Shown here: positions 1 to 57,500 of the stretch, piece after piece
Layout: the number at the start of each line of letters is the position of its first letter
Position numbering within the stretch: position 1 is the stretch's first letter
From: Apostichopus japonicus
Lineage: Eukaryota; Echinodermata; Holothuroidea; Aspidochirotida; Stichopodidae
DNA length: 64,000 nucleotides
NCBI RefSeq assembly: GCF_037975245.1
Contig: NC_092561.1
Location: 1,896,501 to 1,960,500, forward strand
Direction: 5' to 3'
The notes under the pieces: generated by a model
The model's database searches: none
The model's input: the letters and a program-made list of their open reading frames with translations, nothing else
Told to the model about the DNA's origin: nothing
Program-made: the position numbers and the translations under genes

Positions 1-1059
1 CAGATCTTTCAGTCAGTGTTTTACGGTATATTTAAATTGCAATTCACAAACTGTCACATAATAATGCTTACAACTTCAAAAAATTGTGCCTATAAAGAGC
101 TCCATCTTTTATCTGTAAAGAGACTAAATATTCAAACATTTGATGTTTTCTATAAAGGTCATCACCAGGACAAAGGTCATCATAGGGTCATCACCTGTGC
201 CTTTCTGTCTCAACGATATTTATCACATTTTTCTTAACCCTGCTTGACTTATATCCTCCATTTCCTCTGTCAGCATTTTTCATGATTTTTTCATGTTTAT
301 TCTTCTATCTGCAATGTAACAATGGTTTTCTTGTGGAAGTGTTGATGCTCTTCTGCACGCTAATATGACCTCTCCATATTCTTTAAGCTTTTGCAGTATT
401 TCTGGTGAAGAGAGTTTAATTATGTGTTGTGCTTCCTGTCTTGCAATCTTCCTTTTCTTTCTTTGTTTTGGTCAGCAGCCAAAATACTACTACTTCTCAT
501 ATATACTAAGATTATTTAAATGGCCCAGTAAAATGGGTGAATTAAAGGGGGAAATGAGGGTGGTAGGGGGGGGGGGAGGGGGAGGAGACTTTGGCGAATA
601 AAAAAAAAGTTTGCAATTTATGTTAAGCTAGATGGAATGAGATACAAGTTGGTAAGGTTCCAATAGTGTTTTGTCTGTACCAGAAATATTAATGATTTAT
701 GATGGGAGAGGAAGGGGGGGGGGCAGAGAGGGGAGGGCAAAGGAGGATGCAGAAAAACAAGCTTTTGGGAGCAGGGATTTGGCTTATAATTCATAATTCA
801 TAGCTACTCTGTACAATTGGGTATACATTCTTCCATACGCTTCTTGAAATGTTTGATTTATGCAAGCTTGCTTTAGCCAAGCTGCCGTACTGATTCATTG
901 AGAGGAGGGTTGAACTGTTGGTTTGAGCATTACTTAAGAGTTGATAGGTGGGTCGACGTACCTAACGTAGCTTAACTAAGTGACAGGTTAGTGAGCAAGC
1001 GTAGGCCTCCATGTACAGAAATTGTAATGTTTGTGTCTATGTGGTCCTTCATCAAACAG
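1..1059. other. Upstream intron or flank of the cortactin-like gene
   Basis: No exon can be supported here. The stretch ends in a 3' splice site (CAG at 1057-1059) in front of the first recognised exon, so it is most likely intron, with earlier exons outside the window. It holds G-rich runs near 563-590 and 702-723 and short GGTCATCACC-like repeats near 155-200. The short open frames here have no recognisable similarity. Confidence 0.5.
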
Positions 1060-4000
1060 GAAAGACAAGAAGAACTTGCGAGACAACAACCAGACGATGA
1101 GGAAGAGGAAGAACCAGAGCCAGAGGAGGAAGAGAGGGCCCCACCCCAGGCTAGGAGGGTGTTACCCGCTGTACCCAAAGGAGAATTTGAACAGCCCCAA
1201 GAAGATGAAAGTCTGTACCACGACGCAGGAGGCGGAGATGATGGTGAAGAGGCGTACCAGGAAGCCGGTGGTGGTTACCGGCCCACGGAGGAGGAGAGCG
1301 AGTACCAGGAGGCTGGAGGTGGTACGGTAGTAGAGGAAGCGGCAGGTGATATTTATGAAGAGGCTGGAGGTGGAGATTACTTTGAGGAGGCAGCTGGTGG
1401 AGGTACATGGGCTAACTGGGCTTGGTGATGGTTGTACTCTATCAATCAGTGCAGGATATGTGTTGAATATTCATGAGTTGCTAGATTATAAGGCAAACAT
1501 GGCAAAGAGATACCAATTGTTTCTCTGTAACAGTAACTTGGTCTTCCCTGTTTGAATTCTATTTAGGTCATGAAAGGTGATGAATTTGTCTGTTGTTGTT
1601 CAAGGTTCCCATAAGTGGTTATAGGTAATCCCTCATTTTGGTGTAGGTGAAAGTCAGTGGTCAAATATTTGAAGGTTATATAAAATCACAATACATTTAG
1701 GAACTTCTTTCTATATGGTTAGGTCCACGTTGTTTAGTGAAAAGATATTGTCATTTTTTGATAGAGGTCAAAGGTCACTGATCTGTTAAAATCAACAAAT
1801 TTCACAATTTGAGATCTGTCGTTTGTATGGAAAGTTTAGACAGAAATACATAAGAAATCACTCAACAGATGGCTTCATGTTCCAACATTTGATATAGGCA
1901 ACTTTGGAAGCCTAGCACATTAACTGTATTGGAAATTGGGGCCTAAGTTACAAACATTATTCAAAATGTTGGAAGTTCTGTTAATTCCAGTGATTGATCT
2001 AGTACAACTCACAGCCTGTGGTATAGCTATCTGCTTTTCTTTCTAAATGATTGCTTTGCTATAAATATAGAGGGGATCATGGGTCTGTAGTTCCCTGAAT
2101 AAACCAGCTCTTGCCCTCCACTGGACCTATAGTGTGAGCTACAATAGTCCAAGCACAAATATTTAACACAAAACACACAGAACATCCTGTGTCCAAAATT
2201 ATTTTGCACTTATTCCCCTCAAATACCTCGGATTGTGGAAGCTAGAGCATCAAAATATTCTCTTAAAGGTATGCTGTATTGGCCCAAAATATGCTAAATA
2301 TTCAAATATGGTCACCTTTGGTACAATTCATAAACTGTTTTTGTTACAACCTTCTATTCCTTCTATCAAATCCTAATGGGCAGTGCAAACCAAAACAAAT
2401 AGTGAAGATATGACTCTTTTTATCTGCTTTTCATTGACTGTTAATTGGGAAAGACTTTATAACCTTAATGGTGGTGTTGCTCTCTATAATATTGCTGCTT
2501 GCTAAAATTGCTTTTATTGTAATAGTTTTGCTTTGGGAGCGATATGTTGGTTGCCATGGAAACTCCAAAAAGAATCGAAAATATGAAAAATAAATTAATG
2601 CTTCCATAGCCCTACTCACTGGTGAAGGTTTTTGTTGTTGTTATTAATAAAGCTTATCAAATAATATATGCTAGGATGCAATAGACATCTCCATATAGAG
2701 TCTTATTTATCAAGAAATTTAAAGTTGAACCAAGATCATGCAGAAATTAAATTTAAGGTTCGAATTGGAAGTTTAGTGGAAATAAACGAGTTGAGCTGGA
2801 TTACCTGTGTTCTGTTTCAATGCAGAAAAGTTTCAACCACTTTGTGGTAAGTAATTTAGTTCTGCCATTAAACTTAGTGGTAAAAGAAGTAACAATACGG
2901 ATAAAAGATGATTACTTTTTGTGTTTTTGTCTGCATTTCACAGCTCCCGAAGAGCCGAGCACGTACGAAGATTTACCAGAACGAACCGATGAGGGTCCTA
3001 CAGCCATAGCACTTTATGACTATCAAGCAGGTAAGAAGGGAAAGAAAAACAGAACCCTGTTTTCACGACTTTTGCTTGTTGTTGTCACCTTTATAAGTGC
3101 AGCAAGAGCAACTCTGACATATTTATGGTTATGACAAAGATTTTTAATGTTTTTATGATAATTTTTTATTTCATTCATTTGTTTTTCACAACATGCATTT
3201 AAACGTTTACAAATAACAAATAACATGAAGTAGTAGTGAATAATACATGAAGTGAAGAGGCGGAACAAAAAACCCTTGCGGGCTTGACGGGATGCTTCGC
3301 TCCCTTAAAATACAGAGAAAGAGAGCAATCAAAGTACAACAAAGCAAAATACACAATTTCATAAAATAGGACAATAAGACCATAACAAAACAATAACAAC
3401 CCCCCACCCCCCCGACAAAAAAAAAACACCCAGCCTCCCCTTTCAAAATTTTCCTTTCAGTTAAACCCCCCAAACTTTTTTCCGAGACTAATTTGATTTC
3501 GACGGTAAAGTGACTCTGTGAGACAAGATGCACTGAAGAAGTCGATAAGCCTAGAGGGAAATTAGTTGTTCTGACAATCGTTTTGGTCTTTTGATCATGT
3601 TTAAGGGCGGTAAAGACCGCCCTCAAGATCTTTTAAGTGAATTTTATCTCTTAATTCAGTTGATGAAAGAAAAAATAGGAAGGATTCTTTTGATTTACAA
3701 GAAAATCTTGATTTTATTTTTATTGAAATAACTATAGATTATAGTAGAATAACTATTGTTAATAGTAAAAAAACGAAACAAAAGTCTGATATAGCATTAT
3801 CTTAGAATATTTTTCTGTCTGTTTTAATTTTAGATGATGAAGATGAGCTGACCTTTGACCCTGAAGAAATTATCACAAATATTGAGCAGGTAAGAAATAA
3901 AGAAGCTAAAAATAAACAGCTTCATTTTTTCACTAGGACAGTTTGCCACAACAGGTGGCAATGTCAACACCACTGACTGGTCCAACTATATTGGTTTATA

Positions 4001-18955: not shown

Positions 18956-21900
18956 ATGTCTGAGAGAAAGGTTTTAAATGTGAGTAATTTTTTATTATCA
19001 TCATTTGCATTTTACACTTAAAAGCAGAAAGCTGGTCTTTTGCAACATTTTTTGGCCATTTGAATATTTCTGAGGTAATGTTTGCATTGCATTTGATTGC
19101 CATTCAAAATCTCTTTTTTTCTCCAGAAATACTATCCACCAGATTTTGATCCTTCCAAAATACCAAAGTTGAAGCAGCAAAGGAACAAGCAGTATACTAT
19201 CAGAACCATGGCACCATTTAATATGAGGTAATGAAAGTGTTGTCTTGATGAAACACTTGGAGGGTCACAACCTCAAGCAGGGGCCGGATTTGAGTTGTGA
19301 AAGTGGGGGGGCAAACCTGCCAGCAAGACTATCTAAGCGGAGCGCCACCATCGGTTGGCGCGGAGCGTACAAGAAATTTTTTGGCTTTACAAACCCTCCA
19401 AATGGCCGGAAATGGCACTTCCCGAGTGCTCTAAGCTGCATGTACCCCTCCTTGAAATATGGATCTCATGTCTGCAATTTGTATCTAGATAGTTAATTAT
19501 TGTTTAAAACTTTGAAGAGGATTGATAGTAGAATTATGGTCAAATGGTGATGTACAACTTTTGTTATACGTCACTATCTAAGCGGAGCGCCATCATCGGT
19601 TGGCAAGGAGCGTCGAAATTTTCGATGAAAGGTACCCTTAGATCGGTAAAATTAACACCCATATAGGCTTTAAATTGCATCTAAACAATTAATGAACGTG
19701 TGTAAATTTAGGGATGGCGGATAGAAGAACTTATATGGTGATGTACAACTGAAGCTTATACGTCACTATTTAGGCGGTGCACCACCATCAGTTGGCGCGG
19801 CGCGTCAAAATTTAAGCAAAAAGGAAATCCTAGATCAGCAAAAATGACACCTCTGGTAACAATAAACTGCATCTAGACAGTTCTTTCCCCCTAAAATTAT
19901 TAGTATATTGTACATCTGGACCGATCAAGAATATGTTCAGCACCCACTTCGAAATTCTCCCCGCGGTCCCCACGTCTTGGAGCACTTGGCAAATATTGGG
20001 GCTGAACATACCTTTACCTCCCCCCCCACTTTTTTTCATGGGGGATAAGCCCCTCAAGTCCACCGGTTCCGTCGCCACTGAAGTCGAGGAGGGGTGATTT
20101 CGAGCAGTAAAGAAATTACATCGGCATATGCCATTGCATATTGTTGAATGACACGGGGGGGGGGGGGGGGTGTCATGTGTCAGTGTATAATTATTGATAT
20201 ACCCAATATGCAAATCTGGCTTTTGAAAATTCCGGCAATATGCTAAGAATGTTTCGGGCAGCTACTGAAAGAAAAATCATTTGCAATGTTTTTTTTCAAT
20301 GTTAAAACTTATTATTATTGTAACAGCTTACCCAATTAATTATAACCAATATGGAAGGGTAATAAATAACACGGCAAAAGATTGTATGTTATTGGCATGC
20401 GATGTAATAGCCAATGCCTGCCTATATGATATGCACATTAAGATGTTGAACTCCGCGCATTTCGGTTATATTTTGGGACAAGTCGTTACAGCCCTTCCAA
20501 ATCAAATTGGGCTCCTACGCATACTGTTTGTGTGTCACTGCTTATTATCAGCAAATTATTGTGGTGCTCTAAAGAGGGAGTAGAGTAAATGATGTGTGTT
20601 GTGATTCAGGAAAATGCCAGTTAGAACTTGACTATAGCCAGTAGATTCTAAGCACTTGCAATTTATGAAATTCTGTTGTGAAAACATGACACCATTTCTC
20701 AGCCTAGACATGAAATATATTGTAATATTGTGACGAGCCCGCTCCTCCGATAGTAAAACTATATCGGGACTCGCGATAGAAAGGTACTGGGATATCTTGA
20801 TGCCGTTTTTATGCTTCTTCAGGAGATGTCTCGAACGGAAGAAAACAATGAGTTCACACAAAAAACAAGTTGACGAGATAGGATTTGATTTAATGATTCG
20901 GTATAATTTCTTCTCTGTCGATTCTCTTAACAAATAAAACTAAATTACAATGATTTGACTTGACTTGACTCCGTCAATTAAACAATTAGGAGTGATGAAC
21001 TTTCGGCGGAGTGATAAATTTGCTGACCAAGTCATAAATTTGCTGACAGAGTGCGTAAACTTTCGGCCCCCTTTTACTTTTATACCCTATTTCTATAAAA
21101 TCCCACTGCGCATAATCAGTAGGCAGCCAATAACCTGACCATCCTGTATTTACTTAACGATATAGAAATAAGTGCGCTGGCACTGATCTGCCCTGATTGG
21201 TTGGGAGTTTGGAAGTCCATCCCCTTTCTATGGAAACTTCCATACCACGTGAGAGAACCTTCTCGAATGTTCCACAGACATAATGGAATCTATTTTGGGA
21301 AAAGGCCCTGTACCAAGATTCAATAAGATAGTTAAAAACTTCTCGTGGGAAAACTGAATCCATGACCTAGATAAATACATAAGAGGCCTGTAAGGTGTCT
21401 CGATGGAGTGTTTCGGTAACATCAAAGAGATGGTATCACTATTTCATAACATCCCCCTCAATCTTTTAAAATTTTTGGATACTCCAAAATTTTAACATCA
21501 TACTGCTTTAACTTATCATAATCTCAAGAAGGTAGAGTACTGTAAGCACATTCACTAATATTCATTGACTTCAATAAATGGTCTTCATATATCTCAAAGG
21601 TTAACATCTTGGTTACGAATTATTAAAATGATCATATGGTATATACATTGACACTATCTCCATGAAATTGAAGTGTACCTCTTCAATATTGATGACATCA
21701 TATGATGTAATCTAAAAAAAAAAATCATTAAGTTATCTTAAAGTTACATGACACAGCAAAATATGCAGTATCTCTTACAAAATACATTTATGCATTTCAT
21801 ACATCAATAATACATTTATATCAAAAGTGAAATCATGCCGTGAATTGGGGAGAGATCAGAGAATACTAGACTTAGTTACCTTTTAACTGAACAGAACACC

Positions 21901-24900
21901 TTACTGTAGCATTCCATAAATTTTCGTACACTAAAAAAAGGAACCTTAAAATATTACAAACTCATTTACAAAACTCCTCTTTAATGAAGGCATAGTTTCA
22001 AAACTGCTTTGAAACCCTGTGAATCATATACATCCACTTCAAGAAAATCAACAAAATGTGACTCGATAGCATGGTGACCCTAGGTATGCACTCCGAAATG
22101 ATCTAGTAAAGTACCAAAGTACTAGATATTCAATACCATAAAAGAGACCCCATAGACTATGACATCAATAAATCTTTCTTCAAATTAAATAATACTTAAC
22201 ATCTTGTCTTTTCAACTTCTTGCTTCATCAAGAAATTAACATTTGCATGAATAATTGAGGAAAAGAAAATATATACATAAATTCCTCGAAAGATCTATAC
22301 TTTCACTTGCTTCGATAACCGTTGCCGTAAGCAAAAGTTGCACATCACCAATGCTGTCTCTAAATAGCCTTCAATATATAACCATCAATGATGCAATGTA
22401 AATATCCTTAAAATATTTCTCAAATATATGAAAACCCATGTTGCTAATATTCCGGATATGTTCTAATTGCCGGGTAAACGTTTGAACGAATTCATAAGGA
22501 GAAAAAGGTATACTCATTACACATTTGTTATAAAAGATGAAACTAGGTCACTTAGTGGTGTTTTAACAATAAAGCTTATATTGTTACACCATATAGTACA
22601 ATGACTTCCACTTAATAGGTATGCAGGTAATTGCAATGACACATTCCATTCATACAATTGTGGGTAAAACACCTGTTCATCTGAACTTAAAGCAATATGC
22701 AGTTATACATTCTAACCATATAATGTTTGCAACATCCTGCCTGGATTGCCTGTAATGTTCAATCCCTTTTCATGGAGAAAATTCATTATTTCCTCTGTGT
22801 TGGAATATTTTCCTACATTCCACCAAAAATCATGACTCTTAAAGCCTGTTGGAAAACATGGTGTCTGATAGGTGACCAGAACCTGTAATTCACCCAATTT
22901 GTATCGAGCACGTTGGACTTTCATGTCTCCTTGTGGAGCATTTGCAAAAACTTTCTTTTGCCTTAATATGCTATCTCTGATGGAAGGATATGGAATTGCT
23001 AATCCTTCATTATGTGCTCTATTCTCTAAAAAGGATGCAACATTCATTGGCTTAGTGGTCACAAGACACATGATGTGATCTGAAGTTACCCCTGGCAAAA
23101 TGTTACCAAACTCATCATGAAACTCAATATGTGCATCTTGCATGACATTAACATTTTCTGCATTAGAAGTGTTACTACTCAAAACATTTCGCATTCGTGC
23201 AACCTTTTCACTTGATGAACCCTTTGTTTTCAAGACATTCCGCAATTTCTGAATGTTGGTGATATTCTTAGTTTCAGAAGATGCTCTTACAAAACATGGT
23301 TTAAGCCTGTTATAATTGAATACATCACTAAGAATTTCTCCTTTGAGAGTGGCCAACAAATAATGAGTCCTATCCAAAACTTGATGGATTACTAGTGGTC
23401 CACACCATTCTGCAGCAATTTTGCGAGAGTTCGCAGTCAAGGAGGAAGACGTTGGCTTATATAGATACACTAATTGACCCGTTGAATAAATTGCACCTTT
23501 GTCTAGTTTTGCACTTATCTTAACATTTTGAGCATCTTGTTGCTTCTTTTGTAAGACTAACATTACCCTTGACAAATGATCAAATCGTTTCTTTAACAAT
23601 GCAGCATATTCTCCATGAGATTGTGATAATCCTGCCATTGGATTGAATGATAAATTTGTAAGATTTGGTGGCTTACGTCCAAATGCAAGTTCAAATGGGC
23701 TATAGCTACCTAACTGAGGAGAGGAAAATGTGTTATATGCATAGGCTGATGTTGGGACAAATCGTACCCAATCCGTACCAAACTGATTTAAGTTCACTTT
23801 GAGGAAATTTGAAAGAGTCTGAATGTGTCTTTCAACCTGTAAGCTTCCATGATTGCTTACACTGATGAACTTTTGTTCAATGCCTAAAGCTTTACTTAAG
23901 AGCTCCACTAATTTTCCTGTAAGAGAAGCTGCCGCATCACTTATGATACAAGACGGTGGACCAAAGGTTGTGACTACCCTCTGCAATAATGCTTCACATA
24001 TTGTTTCAGCATCAAGAGTCTTAAGAGAAACACATACAACAAATCTAGTGATCTCATCACAAACAACCATCAAATGTTTAAATCCTGTAGCCGTTGTGGG
24101 CATAGTCTTGAAATCCAGACTAAGTCTGTCAAAAGGACGATAAGAATCAGGAATGCGAGCATGATATTGTCTCAATTTGTCCGGTTTCTTACGGAATTCT
24201 TGACAACGGAGACATGCCTGAATATAATTACTGATGCGTTGAAACATATTGCGCAGATAGAAATGCTGTCTAATGGTCAAATATGTACGCATTACACCCT
24301 GATGATTACTTAACAAGTCATCATGATATCGAGATATTATCTGTTCTACCATAGTCTCAGGTACGACTAACTGAAGAGTCATCTTAGCATCATTAGTCTC
24401 ATGCAAAAATATCCTGAATAACAAACTATTACATAACAAATAATCCTCTGCTTGAGAACGAACAGTTCTAGCATGCTTAACATTACTTGGAATAATGTCA
24501 TGTGCAAGAAAATCATAAATTGGTTTGTAGTAAGGACAAGTTTGTTGTTGAATTTGCCCCGCTCCTCCACCATGTAATATTGTGACGAGCCCGCTCCTCC
24601 GATAGTAAAACTATATCGGGACTCGCGATAGAAAGGTACTGGGATATCTTGATGCCGTTTTTATGCTTCTTCAGGAGATGTCTCGAACGGAAGAAAACAA
24701 TGAGTTCACACAAAAAACAAGTTGACGAGATAGGATTTGATTTAATGATTCGGTATAATTTCTTCTCTGTCGATTCTCTTAACAAATAAAACTAAATTAC
24801 AATGATTTGACTTGACTTGACTCCGTCAATTAAACAATTAGGAGTGATGAACTTTCGGCGGAGTGATAAATTTGCTGACCAAGTCATAAATTTGCTGACA

Positions 24901-27900
24901 GAGTGCGTAAACTTTCGGCCCCCTTTTACTTTTATACCCTATTTCTATAAAATCCCACTGCGCATAATCAGTAGGCAGCCAATAACCTGACCATCCTGTA
25001 TTTACTTAACGATATAGAAATAAGTGCGCTGGCACTGATCTGCCCTGATTGGTTGGGAGTTTGGAAGTCCATCCCCTTTCTATGGAAACTTCCATACCAC
25101 GTGAGAGAACCTTCTCGAATGTTCCACAGACATAATGGAATCTATTTTGGGAAAAGGCCCTGTACCAAGATTCAATAAGATAGTTAAAAACTTCTCGTGG
25201 GAAAACTGAATCCATGACCTAGATAAATACATAAGAGGCCTGTAAGGTGTCTCGATGGAGTGTTTCGGTAACATCAAAGAGATGGTATCACTATTTCATA
25301 ACAATATCTTCAGACAATAAATGTAACAAGTCATATTTTGGGCAAGGCTAATATATTTCTGTTACGGGTGATGTCAAGTTGCAAAATAATAAGTCTATGT
25401 TAAGAAAGTGTGAATGATATGAAGAGCCTATCTTTATCCGTTTCAGATGCAACACATGTGCAGACTATATCTACAAAGGTCGGAAGTTCAATGCCAAATG
25501 TGAAGTCGCAGAGGGTGAAAATTTCTTGGGACTGAGGATTTACAGATTTTATATTCGATGTCCAAAATGCATCACAGAAATTATGTTCAAGGTAATGTGA
25601 CATTGAGGTTTGTGACTTAAGGCATAAAATATCTACTCTACTATCGGTCCCTGTTTCCAAACTGCCCGTTTCAAAAGAGACGTGTTATGATATTACTATA
25701 AGCAGCAAAGTCCAAGATTCTTCCTAACTTTGTTTGATGTGGATAGCTTAAACCAGTCTTCAAACAAGCTATGGAGGGATAATGTAAAGGAGGATAAAAT
25801 TCATGTCACTAGTCTAAAGTATCATTATCCCAAAAATGTGTGATGTCATAACATCCCTATTGGGTGCCGTTTGTTACTAGCACACTTTTTGTCTGGTTTT
25901 AATATTTTAATTTTTGCAATGAGTGGTATCTTCATTCACAAATGGAACATAATTCACCAGGAAGTAAAGAAATGGTCCAGTTGCCAAACCTAGAGGATAA
26001 AATGGCAAATTTTTATCCTAGATATGCAAGAGGTATTGCTGCTATGTGACAAGAAATAATATCTCTTTGTCATCTGTTTTGTGTTCAGACCGATCCTGAA
26101 AACACCGACTACACTCTAGAAGTTGGTGCCACTCGACTCTTTGAAGCAGCAAAACTGATCGAGGAAGCAGAGAAACGAGATCAGCTGCAACGTGATGAGG
26201 ATGCTACTAATCCTATGAAGGTGAGTAACTATTTAAAGGATGAGCTACTAATCCTATGAAGGTGAGTAACTATTTAAAGGATGCTACCAATCCTATGAAG
26301 GTGAGTAACTATTTAAAGGATGCTACCAATCCTATGAAGGTGAGTAACTATTTAAAGGATGCTACCAATCCTATGAAGGTGAGTAACTATTTAAAGGATG
26401 AGCTACTAATCCTATGAAAGTGAGTAACTATTTAGAGGATGCTACTAATCCTATGAAGGTGAGTAACTATTTAAAGGATGAGCTACTAATCCTATGAAAG
26501 TGAGTAATTATTTAAAGGATGCTACTAATCCTATGAAAGTGAGTAACTATTTAAAGGATGCTACCAATCCTATGAAGGTGAGTAACTATTTAGAGGATGC
26601 TACTAATCCTATAAAAGTGAGTAACTATTTAGAGGATGCTACTAATCCTATGAAAGTGAGTAACTATTTAAAGGATGCTACCAATCCTATGAAGGTGAGT
26701 AACTATTTAAAGGATGCTACCAATCCTATGAAGGTGAGTAACTATTTAAAGGATGAGCTACTAATCCTATGAAAGTGAGTAACTATTTAGGGGATGCTAT
26801 TAATCCTATGAAGGTGAGTAACTATTTAAAGGATGAGCTACTAATCCTATGAAAGTGAGTAACTATTTAAAGGATGCTACTAATCCTATGAAAGTGAGTA
26901 ATTATTTAAAGGATGCTACCAATCCTATGAAGGTGAGTAACTATTTAGAGGATGCTACTGATCCTATGAAAGTGAGTAACTATTTAGAGGATGCTACTAA
27001 TCCTATGAAAGTGAGTAACTATTTAAAGGATGCTACTAATCCTATGAAAGTGAGTAATTATTTAAAGGATGCTACCAATCCTATGAAGGTGAGTAACTAT
27101 TTAGAGGATGCTACTAATCCTATGAAAGTGAGTAACTATTTAGAGGATGCTACTAATCCTATGAAAGTGAGTAACTATTTAAAGGATGCTACTAATCCTA
27201 TGAAAGTGAGTAACTATTTAAAGGATGCTACTAATCCTATGAAAGTGAGTAACTATTTAAAGGATGCTACTAATCCTATGAAAGTGAGTAACTATTTAAA
27301 GGATGCTACTAATCCTATGAAAGTGAGTAACTATTTAGAGGATGCTACTAATCCTATGAAAGTGAGTAACTATTTAGAGGATGCTATCATCTGACTGATC
27401 ATTAGTTACATTTTGATAATTGCAAAAACTTTGAAGAAATTGACTCTAATAGATATAATTCCTGTGGATCACATCCTTGTAAGCTCTACTGCAGTATCTC
27501 ATAAACTGACCAAATCTGTCTCATAAATTTACCCAATCTGTCCTGTGAAAATGAATCACTATCCCACAAAAAGTATCAGCCGATAATCTTGCACTGATCC
27601 AGTATGCACACCCTTTTAATGTATTAATCCAGAACTAATCCTAATCCAGTACTAATCCAGTACTTATGTACTAATCCAGTATGCACAACCTCTTAAGGCA
27701 TTAGGCTTGAACACCCTCCCTGTCTGCCATGCTTATTACTCAGTCCAGGTATAGGCTAGTTGGATTTTGATTCTGTGTGGCCCTTTACTCCAAGCAACAT
27801 TATTATTCTCTCAAGTTGAGGGTCAAAAATTGTCAAAACAATATGGTGCTAAAAGTTTCTGTTTGAATTTCAAAATTCCAGATGTTGGAGACAAGGACAA

Positions 27901-28908
27901 AAGACTCCAAGCTGGAGATGGACATTATGGAGAACCTCGAGGATCTAAGAGAGATCAATACTCGTAAGGAAGAAGTAGATTACACAGTGATATTGAAGAA
28001 AAAGGCTGAGGAGGAACAGGAGAGGCTAGTGAGACAAGAACAAGAAGATGAAGATGAGATCAAGTGAGAATTTCTGAGCTGTGTTGATACACAAAATAAC
28101 TGTTAGATGTGGTTGTTTCATATTTAGTTAGTTAGCACTGAGACTGAAAAGTTTTCATGGAAAATTTTTTTTTTAAAGTCTTAATGTTGTTTCATTTGCA
28201 GACGTATATTTGGAAGAACTAGCGAAGGAAGCTTAAAGAGAATCCAAGATGACCTGGAGTCAGATGAAGAGGAGAGTTCACCGCCTCTCAAGAAACAATC
28301 AAAAGCAAGTGACTACTTGATATCGGTAAGTATCCGCACAAAATAATGAGAAACGAAGAAAAACCGATGACAAGAACACTAAATATGGACATACTTTGGA
28401 AAAAACATTTCACAAAAGAATTGATGCCTCAAAGTCCAAACCGATATATAGCAAAGGGAGAGTCAACAGAACAGATGGTTTCACCTCCTTACTACATATT
28501 TTTATTTATTTCATTGCAGTGGTGCAAAATATTAAACAGTAAAATTTTTCTTCCTTTTTATTAACAGTACCTATGAGTATAGTTATGCTATTTCCATATT
28601 TCTAGAGCAGAAATCAAATCGGTGCAGATTATCCTCTCTTTTCTTAATAAAGCAGTTGCCATGGTTTCTGTCGCAGATAACAGTTTTTATGAAATTGGTA
28701 AAAGACATGAATAATCTTTTGTGTTTGAACAAAAATGATAGCATCTTTTTCTCTTTAATAAGTACAAGTTACATAATAGCATAGTTATGTAATATATAAG
28801 TATTTTCTACTTAAAACACTACACTACTGAAATTTTCTACTTAAAATTTACTTTTTTCTTTTTAGGAATTTCTCTCTAAATCTATATTATTTTTTAAATT
28901 ATTCCTTC

Positions 28909-41810: not shown

Positions 41811-42070
41811 TTTTCTGCAGACTGACTGTTTGGAATTCAGTCAGTGTTTCAGTTTCTGCAGACACTGTTTGGAATTCAGTCAGTGTTTCAGTTTCTACAG
41901 ACTGACTGTTTCGAATTCAGCTAGTGTTTCAGTTTCTGCAGACTCACTGTTTGGAATTCAGTCAGTCAATGTTTCAAATTTGTGCAAACTGACTGTTTGG
42001 AACTCAGCTAGCGTTTCAATTTGTTTAGGCTTACTGTTTCGAATTCAGCTAATGTTTCAGACTTTCAGTT
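41811..42070 (+). repeat. Tandem repeat of about 40 bp
   Basis: About six imperfect copies of a unit containing GACTGTTTGGAATTCAGTCAGTGTTTCAGTTTCTGCA split over the unit boundary. Most copies keep a GAATTC. It lies downstream of the proposed BAK poly(A) site. Confidence 0.85.
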
Positions 42071-45000
42071 TCTATTATAACAATGTACAGTAGTGATCAT
42101 TGATCTGCTCTTGTGAACAGTCATTTTAATACTGTTCAGCTTAAGATTAAATATTGTGACTGACAGTAAATCCAGCTGTCTGAGATATGCAGCTGACCGT
42201 GCTGTATGGCGAATAATTAATTGGGCATTTGTAATTAAGTAATTAAGCTGTTGTAATTAAGCTGCCATTGCTCTCTCAGTATTAAATAATTTTATGTGTT
42301 TGACCAACATAGATTTGGTTTTTAGTAATTTATTAACTACTGATATCAAAAATCAATATTTGTGATGTTAAGGATTCTGAAAATGGTTGAAATTAATGCC
42401 ATTGGTGTACTGATGGTGTGAAAGGTCATTATAAGGCATAGACGAGAAGTGCAGTTAATTTGACTATGAATGGTGTAAATACGATGTTGCTGTCTCTTGT
42501 TATGAGACTGTTTTACATTGAGTAGTTAATAAGGTTGTACATGTTCTCAGATAAGTTTAACTCTTCTGCACTGCCAAGCTGTGATAAGCAACAGTAAGAA
42601 ATAGAGAGAGAAAGTGTTATTTCTGTTAATTGTGTAAAAACATACAGCATTTGAAGGTGATCTGCTAGGCATTGTGAGGTAGCCAACTGAACAGTGATTT
42701 TATTTAAGGAAGTCATCGTAGTAAACAAGATGCTAGGAGGAAAGGGTGGAATGAGAGAGGGGGTGGGAATGGAGCGTAGGGGTGAGGGGCCTTCTATTCC
42801 ACACTGGGATGTCTTAAGTAAAACATTGAATTTTGATCTCCAAACTGCGTATATTATAATCTATATTAGCTACACATAAAGATGTATCTATTGCTCTATA
42901 CTACAATGGGGGATCTCCAGCCATGCCCTAAATCAATAGAGGGACAAACTACAATCTCTGAAATTCACTGAGAATTCCTGTCGAGTAATCTCTGACTGAA
43001 CCCTCTGGACAAACTACCCGCACATTCCATATACACATAGCCTGAAGATTTCTTACCACTTATAAAACTAGCACATTTTAGCAATGAAATGTTGCCCACT
43101 ATTCATCCTATCAGAAAACTTCATTGAGGTATTATCAGTGACGTCCCCTGAACTGAGTTCAAGCTTTGAGCATCTATAATATTGTATCCAAGTCTCTGAA
43201 TTGGAATATGCTGGACTTTTGGGATTCTTCTCTTAATTATTGAAGAAGATATATTTTCACAACTAGCACCTAGATATGTTGTGATATGTTATCAGTGCTA
43301 GACAAAATCTTGGACATCTGTAAACAGTATAGATATTATTTATATATTAGGACTCAAAGCTGTATTTACAGCACTGTTTAGGACTGATATTTGAAATTCT
43401 GAAGTTCGTCTTGTTGGTTCATGCAGAAGACATATATATGTATGGATGTCACTGCACCATTCCCTGAGTTTAGATTGACTATACTGTGGCTTCATCCATG
43501 CTAGGGTAGTAGTAGTGTTGAAAGATCCTCACACCTCTCCCTCATTTAGTTCAAGACATCTGAGGCTTGGCTGTAAAATGCACAAGTTCAAGATTCTCAC
43601 AAGATTTCTGATCTTGTGGTTAAAATGGGAGACCACTGCCACAGTGTGTTAATTAGAACTTGCTAGTCAAGTGACTTGTTGCAACACTGGCTGGCATATT
43701 ATGCCCGAGTACATTGTACATGGGAGTGCTATCAACTGTGACATAATTAGGGATGGTAATGTTTGCCTTATGAATATTTATATATCTTAAATTATGAATA
43801 TTTGTGTCTGTTATTATGAATTTCAGAGAGTCAGAAGTAAAGTGTAAGTGAGTAAAGAATGAGAAATAAAAAATGTTTAAATGAATGTCTCATCTGTATA
43901 TGAATGTATCATTTATGGTAATGACCTACCTAATATTCCTCAAATATAATTAACCTCGATTTGAAAAACTTGAGACAATGCTTTGCGTTTGGATCAGGTT
44001 TAATCTGTCATTTGTTGTTGACCAACATCTTCACATTTTTTATGTCCGTTTTTAATGTGGGGGAGGGGGTACTTAAAAAACCTTTAAACAATTCCAGCCT
44101 CTGTTTGGTAGATGCTTCTGTTGACCAATACCACAACCACATGTTTACATTGCAATATTGCATAAGTTCGAAATCCATAATTTACATTCATGTTACGAAC
44201 AAATCTAGGAGTGTCTTTGTTTAATCAGTCACCATCTTTTGTGGGCCAAATGCTATAGGCTGCTTGAAAAGACCATTTCTAACACTTTGTGCACTTGCAA
44301 AGATAATTTACCTTCTTTACACCGGAACAAAAACGTAACACAAGAGAAGTTTGGTATTCATTGCGTTTTATTCAAACCTCTCCTCAAAGACATACCAACA
44401 GAAAAACATGAAAGGAAATATGATAAGCAGGCAATAAACACTTCTCACTGAAAAAGAAGAAAAATGTTTTCTTGACAACCTTCCCAATTTTTCTGCAATC
44501 CATTGTGCATAAGGTTGTGTGCATAAGCATATTAACTTATTAGGGAATCCTTATGCTATGTGACCACTTTTAAAGTCAAATAAATCAGCCAGATCTAGCA
44601 TAAATCCATTTTTCTTTTCACTTTTAAATTTGTATAAACCACTCTGTTATTAATCTTAAAATCAGTTTTGATCCCTGGCCACTAAATGATTTCAAGCAGA
44701 GTGGCTGTCTAACTTTACCATGATATGGTAAGCTCCTCCTCCCCTCCCCTCCCCCCACATTCTGCTTCCACAAACCCCACTCCAAGCCTTCTCTATTGCA
44801 AATACGCATTCCAAGTAACCATTTGGTCCACTAACCAGAGTGCATTTTCACTTTGCATTTTTTTTTTTCTTCAAGGAAACAAAGTTCATAAAGGCAGACC
44901 ATAGCCACCCAAAATGAAAGTTTTTCATCACCATTTTTACAATTTTAATATAATTTGAGCGGTAACAATTAGCTAGGTGGAACTGAGGTAGCTGGCATCA

Positions 45001-51500: not shown

Positions 51501-54500
51501 ATGAACATCTGTAGCGGCTTTGAATAGTGCAATCTTTTCCTCCACCTAAAGGAACAGAAAACAGAACGTAGCAATATAGAGTAGACTTCAACTTTGCATG
51601 GAAAGTCAGAGAACCCCAGAGAACAAAATGGAAGGTAGTTGTCAGCACAACCTTGCATATAGACTAACTCTTAAACCTAAATATGCCTTAAAATGCACCA
51701 TTTCATGTAAACAATTTTTTTGGGAGGGGGGGCGGGGGACAAACCCCCTACAGGGGAGTTGGTTTTGACAAGTCCACAGCCACTCCTCCTTTTAAAACTC
51801 CTGAATCCACCCCTGCTTCCTTGACATACCTGCCTGATATGGAAAAATTTAGTTTTCAAATTGGAAATATTTTTTATTTGTTAAAGTACACAAAAATTTA
51901 ATACAAAAGTTACAAATTTGTAACTGGATAATGTCAATGTCCCCATAGATAAGACAACAAATTATGTGTTACATATGAAGGACATTGGAAAGACAGAGGG
52001 TTGTTAGAATGGTGCATCAAAGGGTAACTTGGGGTCACTCACCGAAACGTTAGGGTCATCCATTGCTTTGCAAAAGTTGACTGACTCGACAGTGCATGGA
52101 CGGACGGTCTCTGTGCGACCTTCTCTGAACAGACGTGTCATACAAGATTCATAGGTAAGGCAGTTCTTGCCAGCTTCCTAACAGGGGGGGGCAAAGTGAT
52201 AGAGTGACATTACTTATGACTGGCATGAACTGGGACTTGGTCTGGAGAGGGGAATGGAGGAAGTGGAAGGAGGAATGGAGGAAGGAGGGAGGGGAAGGGG
52301 TGAGAGTAAAGGGAGGGAGGTAGGGAAAGAGCAAAGAGGGAGGGGAGGGAAAGAGGGAAAGGGAGTGAGAGAAAAGGGAGAAAGAGGGAGGGAGGGCAAG
52401 AGAGAAGAGGATGGGGAAGGGAGGGAAGGGAAGGGAGAGGGGGACATGGGAATTGAAAGGGAGGGGAGAGGAGGGCGGAGCAAACGGAACATGGATGAAA
52501 GAAGGAAAAAAGATTTAAGCTTTACAAAAATCTCTTATGGAAGAAAAAAGTAGGTGAGATAGGGACATTACAATTGGGGCTAGGTTGGGAGAAAAGGGAT
52601 GGGGGTGGACAACAGAGCAGAAGGGAGGGGAGGGGAGGGGAGGAGGGATACATGCAATAAAGCTTGAAGATTTACAAAACTCCGAAAGGAAATAAATGAG
52701 AAGGAAATGAGACAATTATACAAATTTTCAAAAGTTCTTTTCCTTCATTTTCTATTTGTTCAATTTTAATTTTAAAATGTGTTGAAAAATTAAAAACGAT
52801 GCTAAATTCTCCTTCACTTGTATCCATCTTCTAAAGTCATTTTTTTTTTTTGGACAATACTTATAAGAGAACTGTTAAGAAAAGATTCATTTGATGTTTA
52901 ATAAAAATGCAGCTTACCCTCCTGAAAGCTAATTGCATTGAATTCTGGATGAAAGCGTCGGGGCTAACTTTACACTTCTTCATGGCACCCTTGCCAAAGT
53001 TGTTGTGAATCAGAATATGGAGATCAAGGTCGTCGGCGATCTTCTTAGCAACGGAATAACTCTCTTCAATGATGCCATGAAGCTGCCAAATTAAGGTAAT
53101 TCAGTCAACATCGTAAGAAACTGTAACTGACATGGAGGGGGGATGGGGGAGAGGGGGGTTAAAAGGGGGGAGGGGTAACAAAACTCCTCTGTGTTACTGA
53201 AATTGTTCCAAACTGTAAACAAGTTTGAGATACAAGAATCCCAAACTGGCACAATTGTAAGCAAACAGTAAAACAGTCCTACATTCCATACTACTCAACA
53301 ATAACATACTGTTAACTCCATTCCTGATAATGCAGGCATCAAAAAATTCCCCCCTCCCCCACACCCTGCCCCCCCAACCTCTCTCCGGCCCCTATTTCAG
53401 AGGAACATATTTCCATTACTGATAATTATTTATTGTCATTCAATGAAGGTATTCTCCCTTTTCCCATATTACCTCTCAAATTTACATTTTTAAATTTTAT
53501 TTTTAAATTTCCTTTCAGAAATGGAAGGCTCCATCACTTAACATCTGTCAGTCCCGGTTTCATGAATTAAAGAAAAGTAAAAGATTTTGTGAAATTGAGT
53601 CTAAAGTCATGTGCCCAGCTGTTTGATGTGATGATAGGTTGTGGAAGACGCACTAGTCCCTTGCCATAACGGACAATAAAGTAACTTGCTATCTCGGTTA
53701 GTTGATAGAAGACACGCATGGTAGAGCTACTGTACTATTAGAACTGTGTTTGGGATAAGAATCACTTCTGAGATATCATACAGAACATAACATGAAACAC
53801 ATTTGAGGATCCAGAGAAAGGTGTGGCATAGTGAATCATTTATTTTATTTGGGGGGTGGGGGTTGGATGGGGGGTGGATGATGATGATGATGATGCAACC
53901 CTTTAAGGTGGGGTCCTAAAAATAGTGGTGTCCTAAAAATTGCTCAGCCTTACCTCTTCGGGTATGTCCCACTTTAGCCTGTTTAGCTGTGGTAAGTTCT
54001 TGGTGGAAACGCCCTTACAGTGGCCATCGTCATTGTAGCCCATGCTCTTGTCGTTGGACATGGCTTCTTCATACAGGTGCGCTACAATTGGTGCATCAGC
54101 ACTGAAGATAAACAAAAACCATAGGCATGGTTACCATGGCAACTTCAGGGTCTGAATCAATTTATTATGTCTTTGGTTTATTATTTGATTCCCAATTTCA
54201 CATACTTGACCATTCAAGAGAAAGGTTATTTTATTTGAAAACAATTGTGTCCACCAAAATATACCAGAAACAATGAAATAAGCAAAAACCTTCACTTCTT
54301 TGCAAACAGAAAGACCAAAAAACATTACATTATTACTGACTGACACACAATTTTCTATATTGTAATGAAGAAGACAGCTAGCTTCAACTTGAATTTAACC
54401 TTGTGTTACTACAACCAAATGAAATTCACACCCTTTTGCATGTACTACAACCTAACTGCTCGCAGTGAGGAAGGTTAAATACAATCAGGCTTGTCATGTG

Positions 54501-57500
54501 ACCAGCATTATTGTACTCTATAGGTCTGCTTGTATTCATGTTCAGATCCTCTGAGTAACAAAATACAAATATTATTTCCTCAATCCTGTTTATTTATCTG
54601 ACATCATTATCAGCTTGCCAAGAGTTCAGGAAAGTGAGTTTACTTTATTGGTAAACAAGTTAATAACTTGTATAAAGTATCTTTGCCCTCGTAAAGGAAC
54701 TTGTGATACTTCACTTGACCTAACACTGTCACAATCACATCAATGCAGTTTCAATGTTTTGGGGTCTAGAGTGGGATCAACCTGTCAGGTTTTTAACCTG
54801 ACAGGTTGGTAACACCTTCACTGTTTTTGTCATACTTAGTCTTGCCATTGTTGGACTTTGTAATTTTATTGTCTTATTGTTTTATGTGAGTCAATTTCCA
54901 TGTGCTGTATTTTAATGTTATATCCATCTTATTCTGTACAACAAGCATTTAATTACCCGAAATGGGTTTATTAAAGTGAATCTTATCTTATCTTTTGTCG
55001 TGTCCAGGCTCTATCTTTGGTGACCTTTCTCTAAAAAGTTAACAACTCACTAGCTGTGTTCTGCATTACATCCAATACGTCCGTTTGTGAACACTACAAG
55101 ATTGAAAGACTTGTCAAACCAGCGGTCGTAACATTTGCCGTGAAGCAAAGCTTTTCCGTAGTCGTCGAGATTGAAATTTTTCTGTAAAATAAGAAAAAAA
55201 GATGGAAAGGTCAAAATATTATACTGTAAAGATTCACAGATAACTGCATTGCCTGGAGGATGTTACCATGATTTATCACTACAGGGATCTGCAACAATAT
55301 GTAGGCGTTAGGACATGGGTGGGGGGAAGGGGCAGGGTAGGGAAGAGAGTGTGGGGTTCCAAAAGTTCCAAAATGACTTGCTTGTGTTGTCGTGTAATCC
55401 TAAACAAAAGTTTTATTTTATTGGTTCATTATAGAGAATTTAACAAGTTGAAAAGGACTCTACTACTCTACAAAAACATTTCCTTAACTCCTCAAAATGT
55501 CAACTAATATCCAGATATCATGTTTAAGACTTAAAAAATCAAAAATAATAATATTTCAGGAAATGTAATGTCGATAGATAAAATTTTGCACCGGATGATA
55601 GAGAAATTTACAGCAGAAGAAAACGATTTAAACAATTAATATGGTGAAGCCAGAATACTATAGGGCAAAACTGCCAAATTGGAGTAAAGAACCATGTAAG
55701 TTATCTAAAGCTTTTGTCATCCTAAACAAAGCAAATAGGTTCACAAAATGTATCTTCATGAAATGTATTAGGATTTTGACCACTACCTTTCCCCAACCCC
55801 TCCCTCTGATTGAAGTGAGTTTGTTCTCAAATTTGAAAAATGTTGGAGAAAATGTATGAATATTTCTCAAGAATCTGTCATTGTTTCCCCTCACCACCCC
55901 ACCCCCTCACACCCCACATAGGGAATAGTGTCTTTATTTCTCGAACCCAAGGTGAGTATCATCTCAAGGCATTATGGGAAGGGAGACGACAAAACAAAAA
56001 TTGGAAGGAATGTGGAAAACATTGAGCCTCCCTCCATAGCAAATGAACTAAAGGCCGCATCTATTTATTTGACACAATTCCTCTCATTTATTCTACATCA
56101 GTGGGTACTGAAGTATTGTTTTCTTGGAAATAATGACATGCAGAGGGGCTACTAGAAAGGTTGAGGGCAAGATGAGGGGTTACAGGGGGGGGCTGGTAGG
56201 ATGAGGGGTTACAGGAGGGGGCTGGCAGGAAGAGGTGTAGAAGAATCAAATCAATTGTGTAAGGTAAATGGAGCACACACACAAAAAAAAAACCCAAATT
56301 ATTTTGAAATTAAAACTGCAACAAAATTCCTTCCGATTCCAAATTCTTCCAGAGCACGTCCTGTTTCTCTTCTGGTTTTCAAACTTACCTCCCTTTGATA
56401 AAATAATCTTCCTCACATTAGGAGTCAAGAAAACATTGATCTTGACTCTTGACTGCCTTTTGTGTCATACAGCAATAAGAATTTTCATGAAAAGTCCATT
56501 TGAAAAAAAATTACAAAATGAGAATAAAACAAAAATGTAAAATCTTCAACAAAAAACAAAACAAATGAGAACCAAAGGCTTTGCAAGAGAGTATGTTAAA
56601 ATCAAGATGAGTCAGGAAAGAATATTGAATAGAAAAGTTGGCAGCAAGCAATATGTTTGATAATGAATAGTGCTAGTGCTGATATATATGATGTAAGTAG
56701 ATGCTTGACAACAAAAACAAAGAAGCAGACATTTGCCAGATGCAAAAAAAGGTCAGCTGATTTGTTATGAATTACATAAATAAATGATAATTTTTCAATT
56801 TTCTCCATCTCCATTTTCTGACTTTACAGAAAGAAATACATGTATCTCTTCGGCATTCTTAATAATATTTTTTTTTTCAGTTTTTAATCTCAAAATATGT
56901 TTTTGTTTTGCTTGTCTTTTTATGTTCTTTGTTTACTGTTTTATTTCTTTATTATTTATATTTTTGGCCTATTAAATTTGTGCATAAAGGCAATTTTTGT
57001 GTGTTTCATATCAGAGTAGAATTAATTTCAGTCCAAAAAGAGTATAATTCTCAAAGATTGCCAATTTTTCTCCCCTCCTCATGCCTTCCCTGATACCACC
57101 TACCCTAATCCCTCCTCTCTTCCCGCCTGCTTGCTTTTCTCTCGTCGGTGTCTAGCAGAACTAAAGGATTACTCAAAATAATTTACATTGCACTCCAGAC
57201 AAAGTAACCATCACTGACTCCGAACATAAGTCTAGCTGTCCTGTTTAATTTTTTGTGTGAAATAATGATCGATGCTCTTCCTAAGATATGCAGGAATACG
57301 ACTGCCTTTCTGCTGAGCTCCAGCCCTGCCTTGACAAGTAGCCCTGCCTTGGCAACACTTGTATGCTTGGTCAGAGCTACCCAGCACTAGGCTTGAACAA
57401 TAAAGTGCACCGACAGTGAAATCTTACTACTTCCCTTAAGTTTGCCGTCAGGCCTCGTAGAGATCTACTCAGAGGAGGCCGAGAAGCTGCCCCACAGACT

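Follow-up and report, generated by a model that had tools for sequence, protein, structure and literature searches.

The YJU2 locus

The window, by which we mean the whole stretch of 64,000 nucleotides of Apostichopus japonicus DNA that was analysed, carries a YJU2 gene on its plus strand. Seven exons with GT..AG borders join into one open frame of 407 amino acids with one stop, in a model built on the sequence alone (Table 1). The predicted protein matches the Pfam family Saf4_Yju2 (E 4.8e-86) and, among PDB chains named YJU2/CCDC94, reaches a best E of 1.7e-75 against chains that we take to be human, in an alignment that runs gap-free through NPMK/MLE, i.e., across the join of exons 4 and 5. 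Because chains of YJU2B (E 1.7e-13) and saf4 (E 1.8e-12) score far more poorly, the gene was assigned to the YJU2 branch. Its six acceptors all read CAG, with pyrimidine contents of 0.59-0.82. The donor of exon 1 (18980-18987) reads GTGAGTAA, as the donor of exon 4 does; on the plus strand of the window this word occurs 33 times, 31 of which are donors or donor copies of YJU2, the others lying at 43848 and 62577.

Table 1. Features of the YJU2 gene and of the tandem array at its exon-4 border (positions within the window)
Feature	Position	Strand	Remark
YJU2 exon 1, coding part (MSERKVLN)	18956-18979	+	GT..AG join keeps one frame
YJU2 exon 2	19127-19227	+	gene model
YJU2 exon 3	25447-25591	+	gene model
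YJU2 exon 4, ending in GATGCTACTAATCCTATGAAG	26089-26220	+	gene model; protein match across the join
Minisatellite, 39-nt unit x 30.2	26198-27386	+	21 nt of exon end and 18 nt of intron start
Donor 1 (exon-4 donor), AAG/GTGAGTAA	26221-26228	+	the only one of 30 predicted to give the 407-aa protein
TGA predicted to end all products of donors 2-30 and of intron retention	26257-26259	+	reading frame
Donors 2-30, all GTGAGTAA	26262-27369	+	position -1: 11 G, 18 A (n = 29)
Units 4-12, probable internal block duplicate of units 13-21 (26674-27028)	26319-26673	+	6 differences
YJU2 exon 5, acceptor side of intron 4	27882-28063	+	gene model
YJU2 exon 6	28202-28325	+	gene model
YJU2 exon 7, with stop codon	29624-30139	+	gene model

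Intron 2 of the gene also houses an LTR retroelement on the minus strand (20721-25303), whose 731-bp LTRs (20721-21451 and 24573-25303) are 100% identical. By eye, its ends read TG..CA with ATAT on both flanks, and an open frame on the minus strand has matches to the zinc-binding and core domains of integrase; the element appears to have inserted into YJU2 very recently. Elsewhere in the window, two open stretches within 976-3134 resemble by eye a drebrin-like/cortactin-type SH3 protein, judging from the word ALYDYQA, and a Pfam scan of one of them (2757-3131) gave no match.

Structure of the array

The exon-4/intron-4 border of this intact seven-exon gene is the starting point of a minisatellite, a row of head-to-tail units within the usual range of about 10-100 bp, for which TRF gives a period of 39 with 94% matches and a score of 2029. 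A preliminary description of this DNA had proposed that the border is amplified about 30 times with every donor motif intact, which is confirmed on both counts: cut at the donor, the array gives 30 units, each consisting of 21 nt that resemble the end of exon 4 (GATGCTACTAATCCTATGAAG), the word GTGAGTAA, present in 30/30 units, and ten intron bases. The last 21 nt of exon 4 are themselves the exon part of a unit. The array is intronic except for this exon end in unit 1, and lies behind a donor that is functional on paper.

Between successive donors (n = 29) the spacer is 39 nt in 24 cases and 41 nt in five, the longer form carrying an AG insertion after GATG and following units 1, 5, 7, 14 and 16. 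The first unit had been described as a 41-nt variant in an array whose donors keep a common frame; the first spacer is indeed 41 nt, but the recurrence of this form after units 5, 7, 14 and 16 means that not all donors share a frame. Eight of the 39 unit columns vary, four of them by a single exception and one by three, the remaining three being common polymorphisms, namely T/C (22/8) in a branch-like word, A/G (18/12) at donor position -1 and A/G (20/10) at the third-last base of the unit. In total, 14 distinct unit types are interspersed along the array, and units 24-30 comprise only two types. The branch-like word reads CTACTAAT in 20 units, CTACCAAT in 8, CTATTAAT in one and CTACTGAT in one; the earlier reading of two such words thus stands insofar as each unit has a CTACTAAT-like word, and falls short insofar as there are four forms and 10/30 units depart from CTACTAAT. 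In the exon copy, this word lies within codons for Ala-Thr-Asn.

Strength and accessibility of the donors

Pairing with U1 was used as a rough score of donor strength, computed with ViennaRNA for a duplex between the donor and the 5′ end of U1. Twelve units including donor 1 score -12.3 kcal/mol and 18 units -7.3 kcal/mol, and the other five donors of YJU2 range from -4.6 to -11.2 kcal/mol. Among 3486 GT sites on the plus strand of the window only 13 reach -12 kcal/mol, 12 of them inside the array, where every unit carries a consensus-like donor (30/30 GTGAGTAA), as expected of a minisatellite of the IFI6 type discussed below. The better-scoring donors, which carry G at -1, are concentrated toward the 5′ end: units 1-5 all have G and units 24-30 all have A (Mann-Whitney P 0.004, a value overstated by the shared descent of the copies).

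In a local fold of exon 4 and the first units, donor 1 has a mean unpaired probability of 0.34 and donors 2-5 have 0.42-0.43, the mean of the segment being 0.42. Masking of later donors by RNA structure was therefore rejected, donors 2-5 being as open as the segment mean in this fold. The slightly lower openness of donor 1 would favour the use of later donors, which counts against the explanation that we prefer below.

We also considered whether strong donors are a general habit of minisatellites in this window. Eight other TRF arrays were chosen and scored on both strands; in six, no donor scored -7 kcal/mol or lower, which disfavours the idea; the array at 52280-52410 has two such donors and that at 56166-56235 has one. 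A further minisatellite of about 41 bp x 6 (41812-42060) shows acceptor-like words on its plus strand, e.g., TTTCTGCAG and GTGTTTCAG, with 20 CAG/TAG in 249 bases.

Predicted messages

Splicing from donor 1 to exon 5 is predicted to remove the whole array and to yield the normal protein. Each of the other donors (29/29) is predicted to give the same product of 146 residues, i.e., the first 134 of the protein and 12 extra ones followed by TGA, and retention of intron 4 would add the same 12 residues to the same 134 before the same TGA. The expectation of about 12 added residues before a stop, for any donor after the first, is hence confirmed, the number being exactly 12. Every extra donor would be poison because the first spacer is 41 nt, and the chance of a 41-nt first spacer, were the 41-mers placed at random, is 5/29.

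Nonsense-mediated decay (NMD) is generally set off by a stop 50-55 nt or more before the last exon junction. The predicted stop lies 308 to 1408 nt upstream of that junction in messages from donors 2-30, so by this rule they are expected to be NMD targets, and a stop far ahead of the last junction, as in alternative splicing coupled to NMD, is predicted for 29/29 extra donors. The array had also been viewed as a possible poison-exon array; apart from the exon end of unit 1, it lies in the intron behind donor 1 and forms no separate poison exon.

Are the donors under selection?

Conservation of all 30 donors might be taken as a sign of function, and the preliminary description had seen in it a hint of a decoy or autoregulatory array. 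When the eight variable columns are placed at random among the 39, however, all eight donor columns are spared with P 0.13, and the 9-mer facing U1 (-3 to +6) has no more than one variable column with P 0.39. In 93% of random placements at least eight adjacent columns are invariant, and the unit does hold a second invariant run of eight columns elsewhere. The most evenly split column of all is the donor's own -1 (12 G, 18 A), which lies inside the U1 9-mer. Together with the varying branch word, these observations leave the hint unsupported.

Nor are the copies independent witnesses, because units 4-12 look duplicated as units 13-21 and just two types make up units 24-30. The two nine-unit blocks differ at 6 positions and are probably an internal block duplication; with a block length chosen post hoc, 4 of 1000 random reorderings of the units give as close a match. 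Given the column tests and this non-independence, intact donors are unsurprising without selection. The loss of no donor word in 30 units is what selection would lead one to expect too, and evidence for selection on the donors is weak.

Comparison with known systems

The closest precedent, as far as excerpts of the published accounts go, is the human IFI6/6-16 minisatellite, whose multiple splice donors were reportedly described by Turri, Cuin and Porter in 1995 (Nucleic Acids Res 23:1854). As excerpted, one account of this gene (G1P3) has the minisatellite supplying multiple donors, with two downstream repeat units used and three mRNAs formed (PMC4526556). The likeness to that excerpt is that a minisatellite provides several donors, the YJU2 array covering an exon/intron border with its first unit as the normal donor. 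The YJU2 array differs in its unit of 39 or 41 nt, in that every extra donor predicts a stop, and in residing in a gene for a core splicing factor; the IFI6 unit is said to be 12 nt long, and its extra donors reportedly add 4 or 8 residues in frame.

Human UBC, according to the excerpted text, has a tandem array of dual-specific splice sites that are used stochastically, with no feedback found (PMC10809524). On that account, both loci are tandem repeats with a splice motif per unit, but the UBC sites act as donors and acceptors that border a coding repeat, whereas the YJU2 array is intronic save for the exon end of unit 1; AGGT in each unit, the mark of the UBC type, is seen in only 12/30 YJU2 units. 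The fission-yeast genes SPOG_01682 and SOCG_00815 are described, in the portion of the paper available, as having tandem 24-bp copies that hold AGGT and an intron spanning several copies, in line with the Rogers model of intron gain (PMC4974935). There an intron was put into an exonic repeat, whereas in YJU2 an existing intron seems to have been lengthened from its 5′ end. An intronic VNTR with a 38-bp unit, VNTR6-1 of TERT intron 6, is treated in a paper on TERT splicing (PMC11830802); its unit size is similar to that of YJU2, and the excerpt mentions no donor in the unit.

No donor array in YJU2/CCDC94 was named among the matches listed, judged from titles and the starts of abstracts in a search where few queries named the gene. 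A minisatellite with several donors is accordingly of a known kind, and the YJU2 case differs in unit length, in its all-poison outcome and in the gene concerned. In two collections not meant for animal genomes, a YJU2 fragment gave 7 pattern matches among viral contigs, none of them confirmed, and the unit pattern gave 0 matches among contigs of prokaryote genomes.

Origin of the array and competing explanations

We consider the array to be a near-neutral minisatellite that nucleated on a splice donor and is tolerated since donor 1 works, with the next few donors somewhat leaky, and would give this reading roughly three chances in four. Neutral growth, which the preliminary description had named as the default, is thereby also the best-supported reading. 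A tandem duplication of the YJU2 exon-4/intron-4 border would have seeded the minisatellite, which then presumably grew by unequal exchange or slippage; growth would be cheap because everything past donor 1 is intronic. Donor 1 would be spliced to exon 5, taking the array out and leaving a normal mRNA, while in some transcripts a donor among the first few after donor 1 is probably chosen, as in human IFI6. Such leaky transcripts would carry the 12 residues and the stop and be lost to NMD, amounting to a modest loss of output and not to a control device.

Two details may preserve traces of the origin. The array ends with GAGGATGCTA followed by TCATC, and exon 4 at the start of unit 1 has GAGGATGCTA followed by CTAAT; this ten-base match may represent a partial last unit or a short stretch of homology from which the first duplication started. 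In the 41-nt unit the sequence is GATGAGCTACTAAT where exon 4 has GATGAGGATGCTACTAAT, and a loss of four bases from a longer first duplicate would yield GATGAGCTACTAAT.

The array might instead serve autoregulation, with later donors competing with donor 1 and their use shifting with splicing capacity or YJU2 level toward an NMD target, so that output tracks capacity. NMD feedback is frequent among splicing genes, which counts for this idea, as do the single 146-aa product of all 29 extra donors with its stop far before the last junction, the share of the window's top-scoring plus-strand donors (12/13) held by the array, and the position of the better-scoring copies nearest the exon. Against it, the invariance of the donors is not significant, and a 41-nt first spacer has a chance of 5/29. 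Moreover, Yju2 acts at branching, which comes after donor choice, and would therefore be a poor sensor of that choice. Feedback was tested in the polyubiquitin splice-site array and none was found, at least in the excerpted text (PMC10809524). Literature on CCDC94, taken by titles and the starts of abstracts, gave no link to a poison exon and no report of its regulation by nonsense-mediated decay. We regard autoregulation as unlikely, and as quite unlikely its length-tunable form, in which donors 2-30 would compete with donor 1 for U1, array length would determine how much of the YJU2 transcript goes to NMD, and this share would follow the spare splicing capacity of the cell.

Another conceivable use of the units is as 3′ and 5′ splice site at once, the intron being removed stepwise by recursive splicing that restores the donor AAG/GTGAGTAA each time and ends in a normal mRNA. 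The tandem AGGT array of human UBC is described as splicing in this way (PMC10809524, as excerpted), and 12/30 YJU2 units do have AAG/GT with a pyrimidine content of 0.53-0.59 before the AG, which at its upper end equals that of the gene's weakest real acceptor (0.59); that value is nevertheless unspecial, since 35 of 183 other intronic YAGs of YJU2 reach 0.59 too. The remaining 18/30 units have AA/GT and thus no AGGT, and the yTnAy branch word is kept in only 4/12 of the AG/GT units (8 have CTACCAAT) versus 18/18 of the AA/GT units. The branch-like word also sits just about 10 nt upstream of the AG, the candidates end in AAG where all six real acceptors end in CAG, and pyrimidine content is 0.35 at the array's ten TAG words, all of which makes stepwise removal rather improbable.

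Such tandem arrays are difficult to assemble, and the copy number could be inflated or the array far shorter in the animal. The 14 interspersed unit types, with no simple period beyond an imperfect nine-unit block, are unlike over-copying of one read; an error of length could still be present, and an assembly error as the explanation is very unlikely. Finally, 39 nt correspond to 13 codons that are open in the exon frame, and an open frame of 185 aa runs through units 17-30, as if later donors might add 13-residue blocks to the protein. The 41-nt first spacer brings the exon-4 frame to TGA before donor 2, however, and the 185-aa frame is shifted by one base relative to exon 4. For the present allele the array was rejected as extra coding sequence by its frame, and we give this idea next to no chance. 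The 185-aa frame itself (26837-27394) brings up odd families in Pfam, MatP among them, with no individual stretch that passes, and is probably repeat noise.

Implications

A regulatory role for the array is possible, though without clear positive support; the likeliest reading is that donor 1 does most of the work and that the next few donors leak into NMD. Either way, the locus is a natural experiment on donor choice, with one donor present 30 times, in either of two strengths (AAG/GT and AAA/GT), at steps of 39 or 41 nt behind one exon. The copies that are used would reveal the weight of position, exon length and U1 pairing among otherwise equal sites. If array length varies among individuals, each length would be a dose point for YJU2 output, and exclusive use of the first copy would make the locus a measure of how far exon definition can disregard strong decoys by the dozen.
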